Numbered from the stretch's first letter, positions 13,543 through 26,431 are shown. The stretch: 34,003 bases of DNA from an uncultured Lachnospiraceae bacterium (GCA_946629665.1 CAMOYC010000006.1:1-34003); one strand, 5' to 3'. Numbers and translations are program-made. Notes: generated by a model not told the origin, from the letters alone.

Positions 13543-13772
13543 AAAAAAAGTCGCCTCCTTTTCGCACTTTGTTAGTACGACAAGCGGTGACTGTACACTC
13601 TTCCGTGTGTATCCTGTTTTCAGACACAATCCACAGAAGTTCTACTCGCTATGGTAGTTATTAATAGTACAGTGACTTGTCGCCAGTTTCATAACTTGAC
13701 ATTCGCTCCACGGAAAACCTGCATCTGATGTGCAGCAACCTCACGCTTCACAGCTATCAATGTCACACAGCA
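13543..13772 (-). ncRNA. Candidate structured mRNA leader of the S10 operon
   Basis: About 230-nt untranslated region with a long-range helix: GCGACAAG/CTTGTCGT (13676-13683 with 13577-13584) plus ACTGTAC/GTACAGT (13667-13673 with 13590-13596). Local hairpin ACACACGGAAGAGTGT inside. Confidence 0.6.
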
Positions 13773-13877: not shown

Positions 13878-14393
13878 TCATCTATTGGGAGAAAATGTCT
13901 CCCGGAAGACCGGATCCAGCCTCTTTAAGAGCAGGCCGCTGAGGATTCCGATAAGCACTCCGGCTCCGAGGCCGGCCAGGATGAGGACCGGCAGGTAGTA
14001 GATCAGGGCCTTTGTCTCCAGCACAAACATGGCTACCAGAATCTGACCCACATTATGGAATACACCTCCGGCCACACTGACTCCCACCGGGGAAAAACGA
14101 CCGGTTTTTTTGAGCAGGGCCATGACCAGCATGGACAGGGCAGCGCCGGCTGCGCTGTAGACGATGGCGAACCCGTTTCCGAACAGGAGGCCGGAAAGCA
14201 GGATCCTCATGGCACTGATCCCGATCGCGGCGGGCAGACCGGCCGTGTACAGGACCAGCATGGTGATGATGTTGGCCAGGCCAAGCTTGGCTCCCGGGAC
14301 GCCCAGGTTAATGGGGATCAGCATCTCCACATATCCGGCCACCAGGGCCAGGGCAAGAAACATGCCGTAAAAAGCTGTTTTCTTAGCAGACAT
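13878..14393 (-). CDS. Gx transporter family / heptaprenyl diphosphate synthase component I-like membrane protein
   Basis: Multi-TM protein with PGAKLGLANIITMLVLYTAG motif typical of COG4769-type proteins. Confidence 0.8.
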   Translation of the reverse strand: MSAKKTAFYGMFLALALVAGYVEMLIPINLGVPGAKLGLANIITMLVLYTAGLPAAIGISAMRILLSGLLFGNGFAIVYSAAGAALSMLVMALLKKTGRFSPVGVSVAGGVFHNVGQILVAMFVLETKALIYYLPVLILAGLGAGVLIGILSGLLLKRLDPVFRETFSPNR

Positions 14394-14420
14394 AAGAGAT
14401 TTCCTCCTAGTTTAATCATC

Positions 14421-15263
14421 TTAATAAATATAGTAGATCATACCAAATAAAAGGGCTGCTTTCAACAGCAGCATGGGCAGCCTGAATTTCTTCGGGATAC
14501 TGTCGCCGGCGTTCTGCCTGGGACATACTCCGGCGCATTTGCCACAGGAAAAGCACTGGCCGCTTTTCAGGTTATCTCCTTCCCGGGTCGATGGCAGCTC
14601 CAGGTTCGCCGGGCAGATCCTCTGACAGGCACTGCATCCCGAAATACACTGGTCCCTGTCCCTTTTAAATATCGAAAAGGGAAGGATCGGCATCAGAGAA
14701 AAAACTGCTCCCATGGGACAAAGAAAACGGCAGAAAAATCTGGGTTCCAGAGCCATGCCTATTATTATAAGAAGAAAATGGCCCAAAGCGATGGAACTTT
14801 TCGGCCTTGTCCGGGCATAGAGCTGGGAGAAAGCCGTGAACGGGCTGTTTAAAGATACCTGATTGTTATAGCCGGCTATCACAGCCGCCAGGATCCCCAA
14901 AGCCAGCAGATATTTCAGGCAGAGCAACTTGTCTCCCCATTTCCCGAAAACCCGAAAGGGCTTCTTTTTCATTTTCTTCCTGATCCAGGAGGATACAGAA
15001 TAAATGAAATCTCCTAAACTGCCGAATGCGCAGGCGTATCCACAGAAAAACCGCCCGAAGACTATGGTAAAGAGCAACAGGATGATCAGGGTCAGGGTAA
15101 AGGAATTCAGTTCGATCGCCGCAAGATCTTTCACTTCCTCCACGATCATCTTGATCCCGCCCCAGGCGGTAGAGAAAAGTGCCGGCCAGGCAAAGAAGAA
15201 AATGACCCGTATCCCGGTCTCGCATATCATATTCGCAGTAATCTTGTTCTTTTTCTTTGCCAT
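14421..15263 (-). CDS. NapH-type membrane 4Fe-4S ferredoxin protein
   Basis: Membrane CGYACAFG and CRFLCPMG motifs; two 4Fe-4S motifs CISGCSACQRICP and CFSCGKCAGVCP. Confidence 0.9.
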   Translation of the reverse strand: MAKKKNKITANMICETGIRVIFFFAWPALFSTAWGGIKMIVEEVKDLAAIELNSFTLTLIILLLFTIVFGRFFCGYACAFGSLGDFIYSVSSWIRKKMKKKPFRVFGKWGDKLLCLKYLLALGILAAVIAGYNNQVSLNSPFTAFSQLYARTRPKSSIALGHFLLIIIGMALEPRFFCRFLCPMGAVFSLMPILPFSIFKRDRDQCISGCSACQRICPANLELPSTREGDNLKSGQCFSCGKCAGVCPRQNAGDSIPKKFRLPMLLLKAALLFGMIYYIY

Positions 15264-16493
15264 CTATTTCTCCGCTTCTTTCAGGGCCGCACCTACCGCT
15301 TCCAGGATCCCCCCGGAAGAAAAGGTGGCACCACTGACCGTATCGATCTCCACGCTCTGTTTCTCCAGGATCTCATCAATGATCTCACTGGCTGTCTTCA
15401 GGTAGGCCGGATCCTCGCCTTCCGCCTCCGTGATCTCTATGTTGGTGATCTGGCTGTCTTCCACCGTGACTTCCGTCACAATCTGTCCGCCGAATCCCTG
15501 CCCGCTACCGGTGTAGGTACCGTCCTTCCATGTGGCCGGATCTGTAGTCTTTACAGGTTTCTTCCTGCTTTTCTTTTTCTTCTTTTTCTTCTTGCCGGTA
15601 TCGGTTTTCTTTTTCTTCTTATCCGTTTTTTTCGAGGCCTTTTTGGCTTTAGCCAGAGCATTCCGGACTGCCTTGATGACTCCGTTGGAAGAGTAGGTTG
15701 CTCCGCTGACTGCACTGAGATTGGTGGTCTGTTTGGCAACGATCCTCTTCAGCAGGGCTTTCGCCTTGTTCAGGTAAGAGCTGGTCTCGCCGGAGGCCGA
15801 CAGGATCTTCACAGATTTGATCTTACCCTTTTTGATCGTTACCTCCACCTTGATCTTGCCGCCAAAACCCCGGGCAGAACCGGTGTAGGTCCCATCCTTA
15901 TATTCTCCGGATTCGTCGACCTTCCCCACATCCTTCGGGCCGTTACCGGAAGGGACTCCGTTGCTGACAGGAGCAGCAGTTGACTCTGTCCCGTACAGGG
16001 CATTCTTTACGGCAGCGATGATCCCCCGGGAAGAATAGGTCGCTCCGCTCACCGTATCCACATCCGCACTCTGGGATGACAGGATTGAATCGATCACACC
16101 CTTTGCCCTGGAAAAGAAGGGCTCAGTCTCGCCGGGAGCGCTCACAATATCGATGGCTGTGATCGCTTTATCTTTCACTGTCACTCTAACGGTGATCCTG
16201 CCTCCAAACCCATTGGCAGAACCTTCATATTCCCCGTCTTCCAAATCAATGACACCCTTGGCCTCTGACTCGGCTTCTTTTTTTGCTGTCCGGGAGGCTT
16301 TTTTCTTTTCCGCTTCCATGGCAGCCGTTTTTTCCGCAAGGACCTCCTCCACCCGGGTCACATCATCGGCCTTTCCTGTGTATTCCCTGGCCACAGGTTT
16401 CTGATAATCCGACATAGCCATGGAAAGTAAAAGAATAACTGCGATCGCAGGTATAAACATTCCTATTGTTTTTGCAATGTTTGTCAGTTTCAT
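15264..16493 (-). CDS. Membrane-anchored FMN-binding protein with three tandem FMN_bind domains
   Basis: N-terminal TM, then three DG.Y.G...GFGG...(V)SGAT[YF]SS modules with DTVSGAT, SAVSGAT and DTVSGAT; Lys-rich linker between modules 2 and 3. Confidence 0.92.
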   Translation of the reverse strand: MKLTNIAKTIGMFIPAIAVILLLSMAMSDYQKPVAREYTGKADDVTRVEEVLAEKTAAMEAEKKKASRTAKKEAESEAKGVIDLEDGEYEGSANGFGGRITVRVTVKDKAITAIDIVSAPGETEPFFSRAKGVIDSILSSQSADVDTVSGATYSSRGIIAAVKNALYGTESTAAPVSNGVPSGNGPKDVGKVDESGEYKDGTYTGSARGFGGKIKVEVTIKKGKIKSVKILSASGETSSYLNKAKALLKRIVAKQTTNLSAVSGATYSSNGVIKAVRNALAKAKKASKKTDKKKKKTDTGKKKKKKKKSRKKPVKTTDPATWKDGTYTGSGQGFGGQIVTEVTVEDSQITNIEITEAEGEDPAYLKTASEIIDEILEKQSVEIDTVSGATFSSGGILEAVGAALKEAEK

Positions 16494-16518
16494 CCTTATG
16501 AATCCTTTTCTTTAATCT

Positions 16519-17613
16519 CTATCTTTCCAAAAGTTCCCAGTCATGATCAGAAGTAAAGGAATCTGCCAGTCCCTGACTTACCAGGATCCTCCCATCTTCC
16601 AGGCAAAGGATCATGTCAAAGACTTCCTCATGTTCCCGCCAGAACACGATCGCTTTTTCCGGCCCCATGGTAAAGAGAGCAGTTGACAGTCCGTCAGCCA
16701 GGGTTCCGCTCTCGCTGACAACTGTCACAGAGTTCAGACCCGTCTCAGCCGGGTAGCCGGTAAAGGGATCGATAATGTGATGATATCTCTTTCCATCTTT
16801 TTCGAAATACCTTTGATAGTTGCCGGAAGTGATGACCGCCGCGGTCTCCACTTCCAGGGTCCCGAGATATCCACCCTCATCCATGGGGTCTTCGATCCCG
16901 ATCTTCCATAAGCTGCCATCGGGCTTTCTGCCTATGGTCTGCACATTTCCGCCCAGGCTTACCACTGCCTGGGAGACTCCCTGTTCCTGAAAGACCTGCA
17001 TGATCCGGTCGGAAGTATAGCCCTTGGCGATTCCGCCAAGATCTATTTTCATCCCCTTCTTTTCCAGGGTCACAGCAGTTAGATCCTTTTCCCGGTCAAG
17101 TTTCACCTTGGAGGAATCCACCAGCTTCAGCAGGCGGTTGATCTTTTTCTTCCCGGGTACCTGGTAATGATCATCCGGAAATCCCCATGCTTCCACAAGA
17201 GGATATACAGTAATGTCAAAGGTACCCGCAGTCATCTCATTCACATCCAGGGCAGATTGGATCATCTGTGCGGTATCCTCGGATACGCTTCCCTTTCCTT
17301 CTGTATTTATCTGAAAGATCTCACTGTTCTCGTCGGTGGCGGATACCAGCTTTTCGATCCGGCTGATCTCATCGGAAGCCGCATTCAAAGCTTTATGATC
17401 TTCATCGCCGTAAGCTGTTAACGTCATGTAAGTATCCATCGCAAACACGTCGATAGTCTGGGCTTCTGTTTTCAGGTCCTGTCCTCCGGTAGATAATTCC
17501 GGGGAAGAGCCGGCACAGCCGGTAAGCACCAGGGACAGACTCATTACAATCCCCAGGCTGTACAAAATGATATCCCTGTATCTTCTGATCTTATTCATGA
17601 TTCTATTATTCAT
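16519..17613 (-). CDS. apbE: FAD:protein FMN transferase (ApbE), lipoprotein
   Basis: LTGC lipobox; DLGGIAKGY, SLGGN, TSGNYQRYF and HIIDPFTGYP motifs. Confidence 0.95.
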   Translation of the reverse strand: MNNRIMNKIRRYRDIILYSLGIVMSLSLVLTGCAGSSPELSTGGQDLKTEAQTIDVFAMDTYMTLTAYGDEDHKALNAASDEISRIEKLVSATDENSEIFQINTEGKGSVSEDTAQMIQSALDVNEMTAGTFDITVYPLVEAWGFPDDHYQVPGKKKINRLLKLVDSSKVKLDREKDLTAVTLEKKGMKIDLGGIAKGYTSDRIMQVFQEQGVSQAVVSLGGNVQTIGRKPDGSLWKIGIEDPMDEGGYLGTLEVETAAVITSGNYQRYFEKDGKRYHHIIDPFTGYPAETGLNSVTVVSESGTLADGLSTALFTMGPEKAIVFWREHEEVFDMILCLEDGRILVSQGLADSFTSDHDWELLER

Positions 17614-17734
17614 GATTCCATTCCACTCCCCTTGATTGCTGAACTTTGATCACTCCTAGAATAATTGATGCCGGCAATTTTATCAACCAGTCAGCCAACA
17701 ATAAAGGCATATACTATATTGATTAGATTCAAAT

Positions 17735-17749
17735 AACTATAGTTAGTTA
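17735..17749. promoter_or_regulatory. Operator-like site 1 (AACTATAGTTAGTTA)
   Basis: Contains perfect palindrome AACTATAGTT; 14/15 identical to the site at 17974-17988. Confidence 0.5.
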
Positions 17750-17973
17750 TAACTTAGAATATCTGATTTTTGGGAAACCGTCAAGAGAGGGCAGGATTTT
17801 CAGTCCTTAAAAGAGTTTTTTTATCAACACATTCATTTATCGACTATATCATATCGATTATTCCCGATATTGATCAGACTCTCTCAAGTAAAAAAAGGTA
17901 CAGGAAAATCTCCCTCCTTTTTGATATGGACACGTTTCGATTCCATGATGTATATTAGCTATTAGTAGCAACT

Positions 17974-17988
17974 AACTATAATTAGTTA
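17974..17988. promoter_or_regulatory. Operator-like site 2 (AACTATAATTAGTTA) overlapping a TATAAT -10
   Basis: Same motif as site 1; TATAAT at 17977-17982 lies about 64 nt upstream of the 18046 start codon. Confidence 0.5.
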
Positions 17989-18045
17989 ATACTTGCAACC
18001 ATCAACCCATGCCACAATCATTTCCACATTAGTAAGGAGGAAACA

Positions 18046-19184
18046 ATGAAAAAAATGCATTCTATCCTGACTGTCATTTTATCCTTTGCTCTTGCATTGG
18101 GGCTTTGTCCCGTTCATTCGTTTGCAGAGGGTGCCGCAGTCAAAAGCTGGAAGGATCTCTATTCCGAGCTTGGCGTAACCGCCTCTGCAGAGGAGGGCTA
18201 TTATGACGCCGTTACCAGCGCAACTTCTTTTTCCAGCCGTCATGCAGGTGACATCCCGGATGTAGTACATCGTGTAACGGATGCGGATGGCAAGACGACT
18301 GTACTTGACGGGGTTGTTCTTCCGGGGCTCAGGTAAATGTTACACCGGCCCTCGGTTCCACGGATTACACGGACAGCAGTTCCTACGGCACTGACGGACT
18401 TGTAATCTATCCGGATGATACCGTAGAGGGTTATGTCTGGAATAACTACCTGAAAGCCATGTACGCTGTCACCGTCTCTGACGGGACCACAACGGTCGGC
18501 GCGCTTCCATGGATTGATTTCTATGGAGAACAGTCCACTTCCGGATTCCATTATAACAAGATCCAGGTTGCTTTAAACAGCGGCACTTCCGTTGGCAAGA
18601 ACAAGGCAACCGTCCACCGCTATGATGCTTTCTACGAGAATGGCTCTGTAAAACCCAGAGATTATACCGTAACTGTATATGCGGATGGATTTGCACCGCT
18701 TACCGCTACAGTAACTGTTCCTACCCTTTCCGGAAAGCTGGATAAGGATATCACGGGTGCGGATACTTATGTTGCAAACAAGGACAATTATACCGAAGCA
18801 AGTTACGCTGCTTTTGAGGAGGCTTTGACGAAAGCGAAGGAAGTTGCCGCAAAAAGCAATGCAACCGATGAAGAGATCACGGAAGCAAGAAAGGCACTCT
18901 CCGATGCAGAAAAAGCTCTGGTCACCAAGGTTACTCTTAAGGCAAAAGCGAAAAAAGTAAAAGCCGGAAAGAGTCTGAAACTGACTGCCACTGTAAAGAC
19001 CAGCAAGGCAAAACCCGTTAACAAGACATTGAAGTGGACATCATCCAACACAAAATATGCTACCGTAAACAATAAGGGTCTTGTGAAGGCAAAGGAAGCC
19101 GGCAAGGGCAAGACCGTGAAGATCATGGTACAGTCAACAGACGGAACGAACAAGAAGAAATCCGTAAAGATCAAGATCAACTAA
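18046..19184 (+). pseudogene. Secreted protein with N-terminal DAVTSAT domain, FIVAR-like helical repeat and Big_2-like domain; reading frame broken at about 18324-18327
   Basis: RBS aaggagg before ATG; signal peptide MKKMHSILTVILSFALALGLCPVHSFAEG; frame 1 stops at 18336 but the next frame continues as AQVNVTPALGSTDYTDSSSYGTDG...; one extra G in GGGG restores VVLPGAQVNVT. C-terminus LKWTSSNTKYATVNNKGLVKAKEAGKG is Big_2-like. Confidence 0.8.
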
Positions 19185-19239
19185 GGAACTGTCCGGATGT
19201 CAACTGACACCCCGGCTATGGACGAATCCTAAGAAAAAA

Positions 19240-19290
19240 GACACCGCTTCATTTTTCATTCAGGGAGGAAGAAAAATGATCGCGGTGTCT
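19240..19290. terminator. Bidirectional terminator between convergent genes, nested two-part stem
   Basis: AGACACCGC...GCGGTGTCT outer stem, CATTTTTC...GAAAAATG inner stem; A-tract on the left and CTTTTT on the right. Confidence 0.75.
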
Positions 19291-19344
19291 CTTTTTATGC
19301 TTATGAGACTCAGCAAGGAGTCTTGTATTGTCTTTTTGCTCCTG

Positions 19345-20205
19345 TCATACCGTCCATCTGCCAGATGCGCCGCAGGGCAGTACCAGGCCGTTTGTGCTGA
19401 CCGGAAGGCCGATCTCCTGGGATTCCACCCGGCCTCCGTGTTTCTTCTCGATCAGAGATCCCAGCATATAGGAAAGCACAGCGGGCTGGAGTCCGGTGGT
19501 ATAGGAATTGATCAGGAAAAACAGGGGATCTTTGGAGAGCAGTTTCTCGCAAAGCCGGATCAGAGGAAAGATTTTTTCCTCAATCTTCCAGATCTCCCCT
19601 TTCGGCCCTCTTCCGTAGGAGGGAGGATCCATGATGATCCCGTCATAGTGGTTGCCCCGGCGGATCTCCCGCTCGACGAACTTCACACAGTCATCCACCA
19701 GCCAGCGGATCGGTGCATCCCCGAGGCCGGAAGCCACTGCATTTTCTTTGGCCCAGGTCACCATACCCTTGGAGGCATCCACATGGACCACAGAAGCGCC
19801 TGCCGCTGCCGCTGCTAAAGTAGCCCCTCCGGTGTAGGCAAAGAGGTTCAGGACCTTGATGGGCCTGCCAGCCCGGCGGATCTTCTCGGAAAACCAGTCC
19901 CAGTTGACCGCCTGCTCCGGGAAGAGCCCGGTATGTTTAAAATGAAAGGGTTTTAAATGGAAGGTCAGATTCCGGTAATGGATGTCCCACTGCTCCGGCA
20001 GATCAAAGAACTCCCACTCTCCGCCCCCGCGGCTGCTGCGATGATAATGGGCGTTCAGCTTTCTCCAGCGCCGGTCCTGCCGTTTGGTATCCCAGATCAC
20101 CTGAGGGTCCGGCCGCAGCAGGATGTATTTCCCCCAACGCTCCAGTTTCTCTCCCTTGCTGCAGTCTATCACTTCATATTCTTTCCATTGATCGGCAATC
20201 CACAT
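19345..20205 (-). CDS. Class I SAM-dependent methyltransferase, RlmI-like (COG1092 type)
   Basis: VLNLFAYTGGATLAAAAAGASVVHVDASKGMVTWAKENA and IMDPPSYGRGPKGEIWKIEE motifs. Confidence 0.88.
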   Translation of the reverse strand: MWIADQWKEYEVIDCSKGEKLERWGKYILLRPDPQVIWDTKRQDRRWRKLNAHYHRSSRGGGEWEFFDLPEQWDIHYRNLTFHLKPFHFKHTGLFPEQAVNWDWFSEKIRRAGRPIKVLNLFAYTGGATLAAAAAGASVVHVDASKGMVTWAKENAVASGLGDAPIRWLVDDCVKFVEREIRRGNHYDGIIMDPPSYGRGPKGEIWKIEEKIFPLIRLCEKLLSKDPLFFLINSYTTGLQPAVLSYMLGSLIEKKHGGRVESQEIGLPVSTNGLVLPCGASGRWTV

Positions 20206-20225
20206 AAGTCTTTTCTCCCCTTTCT

Positions 20226-23200
20226 TTAGAGTAAATGCAGTCGGAATATCCTGTGAACAAAATGGATCCGTCCTGCCATTTTCCTGCGGACCGTATTCAG
20301 GTAGCGGACCGCTTTTTCTGCCTCTGCCCGGGTCAGTTCCCTCGGAGCATAGACCGCCTTCTGCCGGATCCGGATCATTTCAGCCAGTTTTCGCTTCGAT
20401 AGCGTGCCGTCCAGAGCCAGCAGGCGCTGCTCGGTCCGGCAGGTACGATTATCCCGGCATTCTTTCCATTTTTTCTGATTCTTCCCGGCCACCTCAAGTT
20501 CCAGAGCGTCCAGGGTGCTGATCAGCCGGTCATAATGGAGAACAACCAGCTCTCCGTATCTGCCCCGCTCATAGAGGCTTCGGCCCTTCCAGGCAAAGAT
20601 AGCTGTGTGGAAGACAAAGCGCAGGAGCATAAACACAAGCAGGAAGGCCAGTCCGATCCCGAGAGTCATCAGCAGGAGTATCAGTGCACTCCGTCCTTCC
20701 CCGGCTGTTTCGCTCTGCAGATCCATCTCCTCTTCCTGAGCCTGAGATTTTTCTTCGGTCTTGTCCTTCTTGGACCCCCGGTCCGATTCTGTGGCCTGAT
20801 CCGTGTCCTCTTTTTCCCGGGAATTTTCATCCTTTTTCTTTTGCTCTTCTTTACGGGACTCCTGTTGATCTTTTTCTTTCCCGCTGTCCTCATCGCCTGG
20901 CTTTGTTTCCTGCTCTTTATCCAGAGCATTTTCTTTGTCATCAGAAGTATTCTCCGGGTCTTTTTCCGGATCCTGGCTGGCCAGGGCAGCTTCTTCCTTA
21001 TAGTAAGGCTGCCCCATCATCTCCTCGTATTCCGGTAATACTTCAACCGGGATCCAGCCCTTCTCTTCGATATAGACTTCCGGCCAGGCATGGGCGTATT
21101 CTTCCGTGATCGTCTCGTTTCTCACGCCGCCTTTCCCCTGCCCGGGAGGCAGGATATAGCCTTCCACGTACCGGGCCGGGATTCCGTAATAGCGGAACAT
21201 AAGTACAGCCGCGGCTGCATAGTGCACATCATATCCTTTTTTATTGTCACGGAAAAACCATTCCGCGAAATCTTTCTCCGCCGTCAGTTTTCCGGGGTTT
21301 TCATCATAGGTGACCGATCTGTTCAGCCAGGTCTGGACCCGTCCGATGATCGATGTTACGGTATCATTCTTACGCCGGCCGTCCTCCAGGGTCTTCTGGA
21401 GGAGAGTCTGGATCTTCCGGTCCAGGAGCAGGCAGGTGGCATCCACGTAATTACTGTAGATACCGGCATTCTCATCTTCCCCGTTCAGCCGGCTCATCCT
21501 GCCTGCCGCAGAGGGCAGGAGGGTCATGCTCCATCGATTGCGTCCGAGAAAGCCGGAAGCCCTCATGGTTTCTCCGGTACCTACCAGGCAATCCGTCTCC
21601 GTGGTGTACCAGGCCGGGTCTGCTTCGTAAGGAACGTACATATATTTTCTGCTGCCACCCACATTCTGCAGGGACAGGGAGTAGCTTGTTTTCCTGATGG
21701 AGGGATCTTTCCGGTCTGAGGACAGGTACCGCCTCATCCCCTTAGCCAGCTGGGAAAGGCCGTAAAAGTCTGCTTTCTCATGCAGATAGTCTGTCACCGA
21801 GACCCATCCTCCGCTCTGGGCGGTCCAGTCTCCTGTGTAGGAATTCTGCAGGGAGAGACCACCTACTGTTTCCATCATCCGGATCATCTCCTGGTCCGCT
21901 CCCCAGAGATTATCCTCAAAGATAATCCCGGTAAAGCCACGCAGATAGATTCCGTCCCGGCTGCCGGTGCGCACTTTCAGGTCCGGGCTGTCATCCCGGG
22001 CCATCTTTCCGGCTTTCATCAGATCTCCGTCCGGGAGCACTCCTGCATCCTGGTGATAACGAAGACTGTCAAGCCATTTGCCTGCCGCGCTCCTCCCGGA
22101 TCCCATCTGCAGGCCGCCAATGCTCAGAATACAGACGATCAGCAGCATGGGCAAGGCTCCGATGGCTGACCCCCAGGTGGACGGGGCGATCAGCAGCAGG
22201 TAAAACAAAAGAAGGCAGACCAGGGCTGTGATCCCCGGCTGCGTTCCGACCCTGAGCACAGGAATCAGAAAAGCCACAGAAAGCAGAAAAGTCAGCAGAG
22301 CAGGCCATCTTTTCCTCAACTTCCCGCCCAAACCGGTCAGCAGCATGCTGACTGCCAGGCCTGCCGCGATCTGGCAAAGGATCCTTCCGGCTCCTTCCGA
22401 CAGGTCAATGATCCCGATTCCGAAAGATTCCTGCAGGATTCCGGGAAAGCCCAGCCTGACTCCGGCATCTTTCAGAAGCACCGCCATCTGGTTCCAGCCG
22501 TCCCCGAACCCCCGGCGGGGCCAGGGCAGGGCCATAGCCAGAAGCGGCAATAGGAAGAATACAGTTACTGTCAGCCATTTTCTTGCTCCAAGATGGATCT
22601 CGCTCCTGCCGGAGTCCATGAGAACAAACAGGAAAGCCAGGCCAAAGGCCGCCAGGGACAGCACCAATCCGGTGTAGGTCCAGCCGGTCTGCCCGCAGAA
22701 CAGCCAAAGCAGGGACAACATGGAAAAGGCCAGGGTAAAGGCCGGTCCGATCCCGGTAAGGGACGTATCCTCCAGGCGGTCCGGATCGCGGAAATGATAG
22801 GCCTCGTCACTGTTTCCGAACTGCGGCTCCCAATCTTCCTCCATCCGATAGACGGAAGTTCCGCACCAATCCGGAAGGACCGCGCTTCCCATCCAGTAGT
22901 CGGTCAGGTATATGATCTCGCTGCACAGGTTCTTATATTCCTCCGGGATCTCCGCCAGGGCAGGTATGTCATGCTCGTAAAAGGATGCCCGAAAGAGAAG
23001 GCTGAAGGTCTCATCCAGCATGGAGAGATTCTCCACACGCCGGAGGATCCATTCTCCCTTAAAGTCACTGCGCCAGCAAAGAAAATGAGGCTGGCCCCTC
23101 TCCACCAGATGCTGGGACAGGGACACATACATCTCGACCAGCTCATCGATCCTCCAGATCTTCTTCTGATCCATCCGGGTCTCCAGAAACAGGACCGGCA

Positions 23201-23894
23201 TGTGACGGACCGGGCTCTCCAGTTCCTTCACCATATAGTCATCGCTTTTTCCGGTAAGTTTCCAGTGGATCTGCCGCAGGGAATCCTCCTGCTGATAGGG
23301 CCGCACACCGGACCAGGAGGTAGGGTCCGTTCCCCTCCGGTTGGCTATATCCTCCTCCCCGTAGAGGTTGGAGGTACCCGGCTCCAGACTGATCTCCGGT
23401 TCCCGGGTTTCCGGCAGGACCATCAGTTCCTGGTCCTGATCCAGGGGAATGACCTTCAGGAACAGGCCGTAAAGGCCAGGCAGACGGGCAGAGTCCGCCT
23501 GCAGACGGATCAGGCCCAGGTATTCAGGCCGGATCTCCAGACGTGCCTGCCAGACGCTGTCACCCACATAGGTAAGCTTCAGGATTACAGGATCTTCGTC
23601 TCCCATAAAATAAGAACTCAGCTTCACCCGGACCGTACCTGCAAACAAAGGCAGTTTCCTGCCGGGAGCCTGCAGACGGATCACGGCAGTTATTTTTTTC
23701 TTTTTTACGGTATAGGCGGGCAGATCGATGCTGCAGCGCATATCCCCAGGCAGCAGCAGATCGTAGACCAGCCCGATGCAAGCTGCCAGGACCAGTGAGG
23801 CTGACAGCCAGACCGCATAGTTTCCGCCAAGGAAAATACTTAACAGCACCACCGTACAGACGGCAATGCCCGCCGATATTCTCCTTATTTTCAT
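20226..23894 (-). CDS. DUF58 - TM - transglutaminase-like (TgpA-type) fusion protein, 1222 aa
   Basis: DUF58 motif SWSGVRPYQQEDSLRQIHWKLTGKSDDYMVKE; multi-TM middle; transglutaminase-core segment KKGYDVHYAAAAVLMFRYYGIPARYVEGY...EYAHAWPEVYIEEKGWIPVEV; charged linker, terminal TM and cytoplasmic tail. Confidence 0.9.
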   Translation of the reverse strand: MKIRRISAGIAVCTVVLLSIFLGGNYAVWLSASLVLAACIGLVYDLLLPGDMRCSIDLPAYTVKKKKITAVIRLQAPGRKLPLFAGTVRVKLSSYFMGDEDPVILKLTYVGDSVWQARLEIRPEYLGLIRLQADSARLPGLYGLFLKVIPLDQDQELMVLPETREPEISLEPGTSNLYGEEDIANRRGTDPTSWSGVRPYQQEDSLRQIHWKLTGKSDDYMVKELESPVRHMPVLFLETRMDQKKIWRIDELVEMYVSLSQHLVERGQPHFLCWRSDFKGEWILRRVENLSMLDETFSLLFRASFYEHDIPALAEIPEEYKNLCSEIIYLTDYWMGSAVLPDWCGTSVYRMEEDWEPQFGNSDEAYHFRDPDRLEDTSLTGIGPAFTLAFSMLSLLWLFCGQTGWTYTGLVLSLAAFGLAFLFVLMDSGRSEIHLGARKWLTVTVFFLLPLLAMALPWPRRGFGDGWNQMAVLLKDAGVRLGFPGILQESFGIGIIDLSEGAGRILCQIAAGLAVSMLLTGLGGKLRKRWPALLTFLLSVAFLIPVLRVGTQPGITALVCLLLFYLLLIAPSTWGSAIGALPMLLIVCILSIGGLQMGSGRSAAGKWLDSLRYHQDAGVLPDGDLMKAGKMARDDSPDLKVRTGSRDGIYLRGFTGIIFEDNLWGADQEMIRMMETVGGLSLQNSYTGDWTAQSGGWVSVTDYLHEKADFYGLSQLAKGMRRYLSSDRKDPSIRKTSYSLSLQNVGGSRKYMYVPYEADPAWYTTETDCLVGTGETMRASGFLGRNRWSMTLLPSAAGRMSRLNGEDENAGIYSNYVDATCLLLDRKIQTLLQKTLEDGRRKNDTVTSIIGRVQTWLNRSVTYDENPGKLTAEKDFAEWFFRDNKKGYDVHYAAAAVLMFRYYGIPARYVEGYILPPGQGKGGVRNETITEEYAHAWPEVYIEEKGWIPVEVLPEYEEMMGQPYYKEEAALASQDPEKDPENTSDDKENALDKEQETKPGDEDSGKEKDQQESRKEEQKKKDENSREKEDTDQATESDRGSKKDKTEEKSQAQEEEMDLQSETAGEGRSALILLLMTLGIGLAFLLVFMLLRFVFHTAIFAWKGRSLYERGRYGELVVLHYDRLISTLDALELEVAGKNQKKWKECRDNRTCRTEQRLLALDGTLSKRKLAEMIRIRQKAVYAPRELTRAEAEKAVRYLNTVRRKMAGRIHFVHRIFRLHLL

Positions 23895-24823
23895 CGTTTA
23901 TCCGGCACCCTTACCTTTCCGCAGATCTCCCGGGTCACACGGACCGCATCATGGTCGGACAGTCTTGCCCGGGAGTGGAGGATCAGCCGGTGTCTGTAGA
24001 CATCCACGATCACATCCTGCACATCCTCCGGCACCACATAATCTCTTCCTGCCAGATAGGCTCCTGCCTTGCACATGCGGACCAGAGCCAGAGAACCTCT
24101 GGGGCTGACCCCCAGCTGCACCATCTCATGTTTTCTGGAGGCTTCCGCCAGCAGGGCAACATACTCATAGATCAGGGGGGAAACTTTTACCGCATTTACT
24201 TCCTCCCGCATGGCCAGAAGCTCCTCTGCGGTGATCACACAGGAAACCTGGTCGATCGGGTCGGAATGTCCTCTTGCTGCAAGAAGTTTCACCTCATCTT
24301 CCACACCGGGATATCCCATGGACAGCTGGATCGCAAAACGGTCTAGCTGGGATTCCGGCAAAGGCATGGTTCCGGAAGATCCCACGGGGTTCTGGGTGGC
24401 AAATACAATAAAGGGATCCGGCAGAGTCCTGGTCACTCCATCCACAGTGACCTGCCCTTCCTCCATTACCTCCAGCAGGGCGGACTGGGTCCGGCTGGAG
24501 GTCCGGTTAATCTCGTCGGCCAGCAGCAGGTTGGTCATTACCGCACCTTCCCGAAAAGAAAATGTTCCGGCCTCCTTGTCATAATAATAGAATCCGGTCA
24601 CGTCAGAAGGCATGACATCCGGCGTGAACTGGATTCGCCGATAGGATAAACCTAAAGACCTGGAAAAAGCCAGGGCCATGGTTGTTTTCCCCACCCCGGG
24701 CACGTCTTCCATCAGGATGTGGCCGCCGGAGAGGATCGCCATCCAGACCTTGCGGATGATCTCACGCTTTCCCATGATCACTTTATTTACTTCGTCAAGT
24801 ATCGCTTTTGCTTTGTTTTCCAA
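23891..24823 (-). CDS. MoxR-family AAA+ ATPase (likely TTG start at 24823)
   Basis: GGHILMEDVPGVGKTTMALAFSRSLGLSYRRIQFTPDVMPSDVTGF; LLADEINRTSSRTQSALLEVMEE. GGAGG lies just before TTG GAA AAC AAA GC. Confidence 0.93.
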   Translation of the reverse strand: MENKAKAILDEVNKVIMGKREIIRKVWMAILSGGHILMEDVPGVGKTTMALAFSRSLGLSYRRIQFTPDVMPSDVTGFYYYDKEAGTFSFREGAVMTNLLLADEINRTSSRTQSALLEVMEEGQVTVDGVTRTLPDPFIVFATQNPVGSSGTMPLPESQLDRFAIQLSMGYPGVEDEVKLLAARGHSDPIDQVSCVITAEELLAMREEVNAVKVSPLIYEYVALLAEASRKHEMVQLGVSPRGSLALVRMCKAGAYLAGRDYVVPEDVQDVIVDVYRHRLILHSRARLSDHDAVRVTREICGKVRVPDKR

Positions 24824-24847
24824 TGAATTTTCCTCCGAGGGGAATGA

Positions 24848-24890
24848 AAAGCGCCGGCACCGGTGGCAAGAGGCCACAGGTACCGGCACC
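24848..24890 (-). terminator. Candidate terminator between superoxide reductase and moxR
   Basis: 15-bp imperfect GC-rich stem GCCGGTACCTGTGGC-CTCTT-GCCACCGGTGCCGGC followed by GCTTTTC on the minus strand. Confidence 0.6.
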
Positions 24891-24938
24891 GTATTCATTC
24901 AATCTTTGATCAGCCAGGATAAGTGCTGGGCCTGTCAA

Positions 24939-25316
24939 TTATTTTCCTTCCCAAAGTCCGTGAAGGTTACAGTATTCCAGTGCGGATACAAATTCCTCAC
25001 CGTCAGCCAGCAGGAACTCTGCATAAGGCTTCTCAGCCGGTTTCAGATACTTGATCTGTCCGCCCTTTGTCGTGTTGATCGCGATGAACTGGATATAATG
25101 AGCATCCAGCATCGGATGTTCTACGGATCCTACTGCCACACAAACTTTATTACCCTCAACAGTCACAGCGGGAACATGCTTCTCTGCAGCGGCATCTGTT
25201 GTTCCGGGAATGAGAACTTCCATATCCTCGCCACAGCAAACAGTACCACAAGGGGAATCAATTAAAGTAGCGATGATCTTCTTGCACTTGTTACATCTGC
25301 TAATTTTCCATGCCAT
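24939..25316 (-). CDS. Desulfoferrodoxin / superoxide reductase
   Basis: CNKC...CC N-terminal iron site; EKHVP, HPMLDAH and CNLHGLW active-site motifs. Confidence 0.95.
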   Translation of the reverse strand: MAWKISRCNKCKKIIATLIDSPCGTVCCGEDMEVLIPGTTDAAAEKHVPAVTVEGNKVCVAVGSVEHPMLDAHYIQFIAINTTKGGQIKYLKPAEKPYAEFLLADGEEFVSALEYCNLHGLWEGK

Positions 25317-25405
25317 AGTTATACTCCTTTCAATGACAGAGCCGGTTAGGGAAGCTCTGCATCATACACAACATAGAACAATAAACCTCTTCAAAATGTA
25401 CATAT

Positions 25406-25434
25406 ATAATACAATATATATGATTTAAAGTCAA
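25406..25434 (-). promoter_or_regulatory. Promoter of the superoxide reductase gene
   Basis: Minus strand TTGACT (25429-25434), 17-nt spacer, TATTAT (25406-25411). Confidence 0.65.
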
Positions 25435-25489
25435 TCAAACTCCACCGCAGATCAGACGCTTTTCAAAACTGTCTGACAGAGACTTTTCA

Positions 25490-26431
25490 TCACATTTTCA
25501 GGCAGAGATAAGCGAAGTATCCTGCGTAGAAAAGAAGGAGGAGCGCACCTCCCGGCCTGGTCAGTTTCCGCTTTCTTACCACCAGGATCCAGAGCAGGAC
25601 CGCTGCAGCGATCGCAATGATCCCGTCTACGAGGAACTCCGGGGAAAATACGACCGGACAGATCAGGCCTGTGGTACCCACAACAAACAAAATATTGAAA
25701 ATATTGCTGCCTACGATATTGCCGATCGCGATATCCGCACTTCCTTTTCTGGCAGCCGTCACGGAAGTGAACAGTTCCGGGAGAGAGGTTCCCAGGGCAA
25801 CCACAGTCAGGGCGATAAATCTTTCACTCATTCCCAGAATCCGTGAGATTGCCGTCGCCGCATCGACAGCCACATCGGACCCCTTTATGATCATGATAAT
25901 CCCCACGATCGTCAGCAAGATCAGCAGCCAGATCGGCTTATCCTTATTGGCTGCCGCCTCCTCCTCGCCATCCGATTGACGGGCCATCCGAAACAGGTAG
26001 ATCATGAATCCGATGAAGAATACCCAGAGGATCACTCCTTCGAAAAAACCAATCTTATGATCCGTCATCCCCAGTACCAGCAGGAGAACCGTCATGGCTA
26101 TCATAAAAGGCATTTCCACCTTCACGGTACTCTCGGCCACCGCGATGGGAATCAGGACCGCTGACAGTCCAAGGATCACCAGAACATTAATAATATTACT
26201 GCCCAGCACATTTCCGATCGTGATGGCTGCGCTGCCTTTTAAAGCGGATGCGATGCTGACTGCAGCCTCCGGGGCACTGGTCCCCATCGCCACGATCGTC
26301 AGACCGATCACCAATTGGGGAATCCCGAACTTACCTGCAATTCCCGCAGCACCATCAACAAACCAATCTGCCCCTTTCATCAGAAGGACAAATCCTATGA
26401 TCAACAGACCAAGCTGGATTAATATCTCCAT
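25490..26431 (-). CDS. Calcium/sodium antiporter (CaCA, YrbG type)
   Basis: Two inverted repeats with GTSAPEAAVSIASAL...GNVLGSNIINVLV and GTSLPELFTSVTAARKG...GNIVGSNIFNIL. Confidence 0.95.
   Translation of the reverse strand: MEILIQLGLLIIGFVLLMKGADWFVDGAAGIAGKFGIPQLVIGLTIVAMGTSAPEAAVSIASALKGSAAITIGNVLGSNIINVLVILGLSAVLIPIAVAESTVKVEMPFMIAMTVLLLVLGMTDHKIGFFEGVILWVFFIGFMIYLFRMARQSDGEEEAAANKDKPIWLLILLTIVGIIMIIKGSDVAVDAATAISRILGMSERFIALTVVALGTSLPELFTSVTAARKGSADIAIGNIVGSNIFNILFVVGTTGLICPVVFSPEFLVDGIIAIAAAVLLWILVVRKRKLTRPGGALLLLFYAGYFAYLCLKM

Follow-up and report, generated by a model that had tools for sequence, protein, structure and literature searches.

A probable flavin-based electron-export operon with a divergent Tp47-like gene in an uncultured Lachnospiraceae bacterium

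Gene clusters of the NapH-like, multi-flavinylated and EetB-linked kinds have already been described (Meheust 2021; Rivera-Lugo 2023). Meheust et al. 2021 counted 2,465 NapH-like flavinylation clusters, 539 of them with a separate FMN_bind protein; in some clusters of multi-flavinylated proteins, genes for large wall proteins bearing FIVAR, SLH, Rib or LysM domains are also found (PMC8238504). EetB of Listeria is an ECF-S subunit that binds flavin adenine dinucleotide (FAD) and is required for flavinylation; its gene adjoins apbE in 2,169 genomes and is also present in some NapH-like clusters (PMC9973259). What the multi-flavinylated clusters do, and where they end on the wall side, is left open by the published work. 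Here, positions 13,878 to 19,184 of a contig from an uncultured Lachnospiraceae bacterium are compared with these systems. The window is the whole of this 34,003-base contig (C6), which belongs to an assembly of 2.14 Mb in 209 contigs, 87.5% complete. Judged from its sequence, the locus probably carries an operon for flavin-based electron export that belongs with the published NapH-like, multi-flavinylated systems. This interpretation is well supported, and the class itself is not new; new are the apparently fused, condensed form in which the window holds two flavoproteins of its relatives, the broken reading frame of the divergent gene and its distant kinship to Tp47, a recurrent partner of NapH and flavin mononucleotide (FMN) modules from the Tp47 family, including FMN_bind-Tp47 fusions, and a pair of similar palindromes around the divergent promoters.

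The four-gene operon and the triple FMN_bind protein

Four adjacent minus-strand genes had been proposed in the first-pass annotation, and open reading frames (ORFs) were found for all four, with families assigned by Pfam:

13878..14393, minus strand: eetB homologue; PF07456 (Hpre_diP_synt_I), 6e-38; membrane protein of ECF-S type, predicted to export FAD for use by ApbE
14421..15263, minus strand: gene of a NapH-like polytopic 4Fe-4S membrane protein; Fer4_5, 2e-12, and weaker 4Fe-4S models
15264..16493, minus strand: triple FMN_bind protein, 409 residues; FMN_bind three times, 8e-45; N-terminal membrane anchor; Lys-rich linker ahead of domain 3
15984-16238, 15642-15899 and 15270-15524, minus strand: the FMN_bind domains within 15264..16493
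16519..17613, minus strand: apbE, lipoprotein-like FAD:protein FMN transferase; PF02424, 3e-93

The intergenic gaps are operon-like (27, 0 and 25 nucleotides, from the 13878 side), and apbE, the triple FMN_bind gene, the napH-like gene and the PF07456 gene form one operon. A PF12801 protein (the Fer4_5 match) beside FMN_bind and ApbE is also what defines a NapH-like flavinylation system operationally (PMC8238504). The NapH-like protein matches TIGR02163 NapH/MauN at 6e-23, under the cut-off of that model; a motif scan and hydropathy gave CGYAC and CRFLCP motifs, two ferredoxin-type 4Fe-4S motifs and about five hydrophobic segments.

The gene at 13878-14393 had been described as Gx/HepT-type, and this is corrected here. 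A HepT or prenyl synthase identity was rejected, because the PF07456 match and the definition of EetB, for which PF07456 is the Pfam family in use (PMC9973259), point elsewhere; the gene encodes an EetB homologue, for it lies near apbE and its product is a PF07456 membrane protein. By analogy with Listeria EetB, the only such protein for which FAD binding has been shown, and with the published adjacency of eetB and apbE, the last gene of the operon is the likely flavin exporter for ApbE.

The triple FMN_bind protein has the domain content of a multi-flavinylated protein, namely three FMN_bind domains and an N-terminal anchor in an extracytosolic protein. Its predicted flavinylation motifs are DTVSGAT, SAVSGAT (which lacks the Asp) and DTVSGAT, with threonines T152, T266 and T390. 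Relatives split the same content over two proteins, a multi-FMN and a single-FMN protein, the latter of about 160 residues. When 48 FMN_bind domains were placed in one tree, the first two of the window protein clustered with their counterparts, domains 1 and 2, in the multi-FMN proteins of congeners, and its third clustered with every single-FMN protein (support 91/94, from few columns). A separate single-FMN gene is absent from the window. The simplest reading is that the multi-FMN and single-FMN proteins were apparently fused through the Lys-rich linker into a condensed version, in which the last domains of the former and the anchor of the latter would have been lost.

A conserved neighbourhood, whose absence had been named beforehand as one of several results that would refute the interpretation, is present in relatives, where the gene order is ApbE, multi-FMN, single-FMN and NapH, with EetB nearby. 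In the stretch fetched from one relative (G005), single-FMN, NapH and EetB genes were found, and ApbE and multi-FMN genes were not detected.

The divergent secreted gene and the Tp47 family

The 432-nucleotide divergent region and the gene beyond it make up the second part of the locus:

17730..17749, no strand: palindromic operator-like site, apbE side; TAACTATAGTTAGTTA core at 17734
17969..17988, no strand: palindromic operator-like site, secreted-gene side; TAACTATAATTAGTTA core at 17973
18046..18336, plus strand: 5' block of the secreted gene, encoding a signal peptide and the motif YDAVTSAT (of which DAVTSAT is at 18205-18225)
about 18345..19184, plus strand: 3' block of the secreted gene, in another frame; core domain 18345-18725, FIVAR about 18735-18920, Big_2 about 18921-19154

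A divergently encoded secreted protein had been predicted here; the divergent gene and its signal peptide were recovered, but not as a single intact ORF, for its blocks lie in two frames. Among 299 genomes, spread over 299 genera of the family, the core domain is present in just two others (G170 and G148). Both have full-length homologues, of 667 and 644 residues (L188 14313-16316 and L189 6524-8458), at the same flavin module; that of G170 is divergent, beyond a two-component system, and that of G148 lies between the multi-FMN gene and apbE. The 5' block matches the homologues of G170 (L188b) and G148 (L189) at E 4e-9 and 2e-10 (blastp), and the 3' block at E 2e-41 and 3e-39. Because the blocks are in two frames and the frame change coincides with a loss of about 55 codons that both intact homologues have, the gene is regarded as disrupted in this assembly, either truly or by an assembly error. 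A programmed frameshift was rejected, as no canonical slippery heptamer was seen by eye at 18301-18345 and the homologues have extra sequence there. A phage origin of the core domain was likewise discarded, no phage match being found.

A 34-nucleotide repeat centred on TAACTATARTTAGTTA, its copies 79% identical, stands once on each side of the divergent region. The exact core pattern, which was derived from these sites, has just two copies in the 2.14 Mb genome, both here. In weak promoter matches each palindrome copy lies directly downstream of a -10, as expected for a repressor common to both directions, so that the apbE operon and the secreted gene may be under common divergent control. In the divergent regions of congeners (L035/L122 and L043/L163) the palindrome is not conserved, single half-site-like words only being present. 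The two-component system of G170 (L188:9881-11820), a histidine kinase and a response regulator that separate apbE from the divergent genes for secreted proteins, is a candidate regulator type for the module.

Several comparisons connect the secreted gene with the PBP-Tp47 family. The core domain matches the stretch immediately before Tp47_a in L170 (119 bits, E 3e-35). In profile comparisons, the window type matched the paralogous unit of Tp47 proteins (A3 against A2; prob 78, E 2e-5), and the paralogous unit matched Tp47 (prob 89, E 2e-6). Anaerobutyricum hallii, which has the system in intact form, carries at the equivalent place a divergent gene whose product is of Tp47_a/Tp47_c/FIVAR type (8e-67 and 3e-78), and Tp47_a and Tp47_c of relatives match the structure of the 47-kDa antigen of Treponema pallidum (1o75; E 2e-27). 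No PF14889 or PF14888 match over the gathering cut-off was obtained for the secreted protein of the window, nor any PF14889 match in its own genome; it is therefore called Tp47-like, not a family member, and is regarded as a distant cousin of the family. The predicted model of the paralogous unit (pLDDT, the predicted local distance difference test, 85) gave no match in PDB below E 0.2 with Foldseek, and that of the window-type unit was too poor for such a comparison (pLDDT 38).

The motif of Tp47_a is Dx[VF][ST]RAT, that of the paralogous units Dxx[ST]SAT, and that of the window DAVTSAT; such motifs resemble the ApbE motif Dxx[ST]GA[ST]. Flavinylation of Tp47-type units would, at this point, be speculation. 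That Tp47 or the paralogous unit is a diverged FMN_bind domain was rejected, the profile comparisons giving prob 1.2 and 0.2 and the motif alone being shared.

Scanning of GTDB contigs with the Tp47 profile yielded 52 loci, from Lachnospiraceae, Faecalibacterium, Ruminococcus, Thomasclavelia, Collinsella, Eggerthella and others (Firmicutes and Actinobacteria). Within fetched flanks of about 10 kb, NapH was found at 44 of the 52 loci, multi-FMN at 42, apbE at 38 and eetB at 27; among loci with full flanks, NapH occurs in 32/36. In eight of the 52 an FMN_bind domain lies within the Tp47 ORF itself, which Pfam confirmed in L139 and L148. Tp47_a exceeds its cut-off in 12 genomes of the family survey, all with a close NapH, against a NapH background of about 26/299; the Fisher p of about 1e-14 overstates independence, since these genomes are related, and should be taken as a guide only. 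In 10 of the 12, Tp47_a and NapH are near each other on one contig. No paper linking Tp47 to flavin or electron transfer was found in the openly searchable literature, and the Tp47 name is absent from the flavinylation papers found.

Tentatively, at somewhat short of an even chance, Tp47-family proteins, which bear the label penicillin-binding, may act in gut Firmicutes and Actinobacteria as redox partners, on the wall or surface, of flavin electron export driven by NapH. They might even bear flavin of their own, by means of a fused FMN_bind domain or the Dx[VF][ST]xAT motif, and the same may hold in Treponema. TP0574 of T. pallidum, named together with Tp47 in several papers, is presumably Tp47 itself. 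A membrane protein annotated as FMN-binding, TP0572 (PMC5607219), is two locus numbers away.

Some Tp47 loci depart from the usual arrangement. Two without NapH (L131:8460-9854 and L143:7142-8593) have, beside apbE, a protein with a hydrophobic N-terminus and a C-terminal FMN_bind domain, a possible alternative membrane entry. At L155:4058-6346 a truncated ApbE domain is joined to a Tp47_a/Tp47_c pair in one ORF, by fusion or by an assembly join. Five Faecalibacterium loci (L156-L158, L164 and L165) hold Tp47, multi-FMN, single-FMN and NapH together, while neither ApbE nor EetB was detected within 10 kb; by this set of genes, members of that genus might export electrons in a flavin-dependent way. 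In a Tp47 ORF of Agathobaculum (L169:7508-11521) the C-terminal end, not the N-terminal one, bears DAVTGATVS, a motif like that of FMN_bind.

The electron-export model and its alternatives

The first-pass annotation had proposed a path from NapH over three covalent flavins and possibly on to a wall-side acceptor. This fits the anatomy of the locus, its neighbourhood and the published model of the class; its wall partner, however, is a disrupted Tp47-like gene. In the model, EetB with shared ECF subunits would deliver FAD outside the membrane, and ApbE would move FMN onto the anchored triple FMN_bind protein, at Thr152, Thr266 and Thr390. NapH would draw electrons through its 4Fe-4S clusters from a putative membrane or cytoplasmic donor and hand them to the third FMN domain, the counterpart of the single-FMN subunit encoded beside napH in relatives. 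From there electrons would continue by way of domain 2 and then domain 1 to the wall side, where the natural partner, under common divergent control, would be a secreted protein that belongs to the Tp47 family or resembles it.

Several points weigh against this model. The second FMN motif is without the Asp, although swapping this residue has been reported to have only a minor effect (PMC12052999). The distribution within the genus is patchy, the FMN protein of the window being matched in 8/23 same-genus relatives, several of them weakly (E < 1e-3, the threshold of the survey). The secreted gene is broken, and the chain may be without its last partner here. The Fisher value is inflated by relatedness, the electron donor of NapH is putative, and the model is drawn from sequence rather than from biochemistry.

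One alternative, rather unlikely, is that the electrons of the module go to a reductase dedicated to one particular extracellular acceptor, an organic or a sulfur compound, instead of to general extracellular electron transfer (EET). NapH-like modules do serve dedicated enzymes elsewhere, in nitrous oxide and organohalide reduction (PMC8238504). However, no annotated extracytosolic oxidoreductase was seen, either in the ORFs inspected near the module or in the Pfam-scanned proteins of relatives; the only recurrent wall proteins are Tp47-type and fibronectin/Big/FIVAR.

Another alternative, distinctly improbable, is that the operon mainly supplies flavin to Rnf (RnfG/RnfD), the NapH and FMN genes being a decaying electron-export remnant whose acceptor is lost. 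The arrangement had been described as stand-alone, without Rnf. This is true at the locus, where neither RnfA/E, RnfD nor RnfC is found among the ORFs of the module; but contig C1 carries an Rnf cluster with RnfG, and Rnf-Nqr family matches occur only there. The RnfG cluster holds the only other FMN_bind found in the assembly, and the ApbE of the window is the only ApbE found in a search of this incomplete genome, presumably common to both systems; it probably also serves RnfG. The single ApbE, the disrupted secreted gene, the condensed FMN protein and the common tie of eetB to Rnf in Clostridia (PMC9973259) would all suit such a supply role. In contrast, the NapH and triple-FMN frames are intact and retain cluster motifs and flavin sites, and the fused FMN protein is in frame and tightly packed in the operon. 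A degenerate Rnf remnant, a possibility raised in the first-pass annotation, was itself rejected, for the locus has no Rnf subunits and the Rnf cluster is on C1.

That the secreted gene encodes an unrelated cell-wall protein, a chance neighbour of the operon, is very improbable: wall proteins often contain FIVAR and Big_2, and Big_2 matches are scattered across the genome, but among the 299 genomes the core domain is confined to the window and two others with the same module, it stands directly ahead of a full Tp47 in L170, and the twin palindromes suggest common control.

The near-constant Tp47 partner, together with the FMN_bind-Tp47 fusions, is a concrete candidate for the wall-side end of multi-flavinylated clusters, and the association suggests a role for a poorly understood family known mainly as a syphilis antigen. 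Carriers include the common gut bacteria Blautia, Faecalibacterium, Collinsella, Coprococcus and Anaerobutyricum; many gut bacteria may therefore dispose of electrons by the flavin route.

Other genes of the window lie on both sides of the locus. At 13677-13759 (minus strand), between the module and a ribosomal protein operon, is an S10-Clostridia ribosomal protein leader RNA (91.9 bits). Positions 19345-24898 (minus strand) hold an S-adenosylmethionine (SAM) methyltransferase, a fused DUF58-like/transglutaminase ORF (1222 residues) and a MoxR ATPase. In A. hallii (L035) DUF58-like and transglutaminase are separate genes, and there and in G005 the methyltransferase/DUF58-transglutaminase/MoxR set lies between napH and eetB, so that the same neighbours appear reshuffled. 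A desulfoferrodoxin (superoxide reductase) gene follows at 24939-25316 (minus strand), and then a Na/Ca exchanger family gene at 25490-26431.

Comparison with known systems

With the Rnf complex the locus has only the FMN_bind domain in common, which occurs in RnfG and in the triple FMN_bind protein; RnfA-E are not at the window locus.

The Listeria EET locus (EetB/FmnA, FmnB, PplA; PMC9973259) is similar in its EetB homologue, its ApbE and a multi-FMN wall-side carrier (the roles of FmnB and PplA). It differs in that the window has NapH in the place of Ndh2 as membrane entry, with no Ndh2, FmnA or EetA in the stretch examined; for Ndh2 this stretch was the Pfam-scanned proteins of 13878-26431, the rest of the genome not having been searched for it.

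Compared with PBP-Tp47 proteins (1o75; PF14889/PF14888), the partner proteins of relatives have Tp47_a and Tp47_c and retain the Dx[VF][ST]xAT motif, whereas the protein of the window has only distant Tp47-like units.

With the NapH-like systems (PMC8238504) the locus shares ApbE, FMN_bind proteins separate from it, a PF12801 NapH protein, FIVAR wall proteins and the proposed route from membrane to wall. In contrast to these, the multi-FMN and single-FMN proteins of the window are apparently fused, and the recurrent wall partner in relatives is the Tp47 family.

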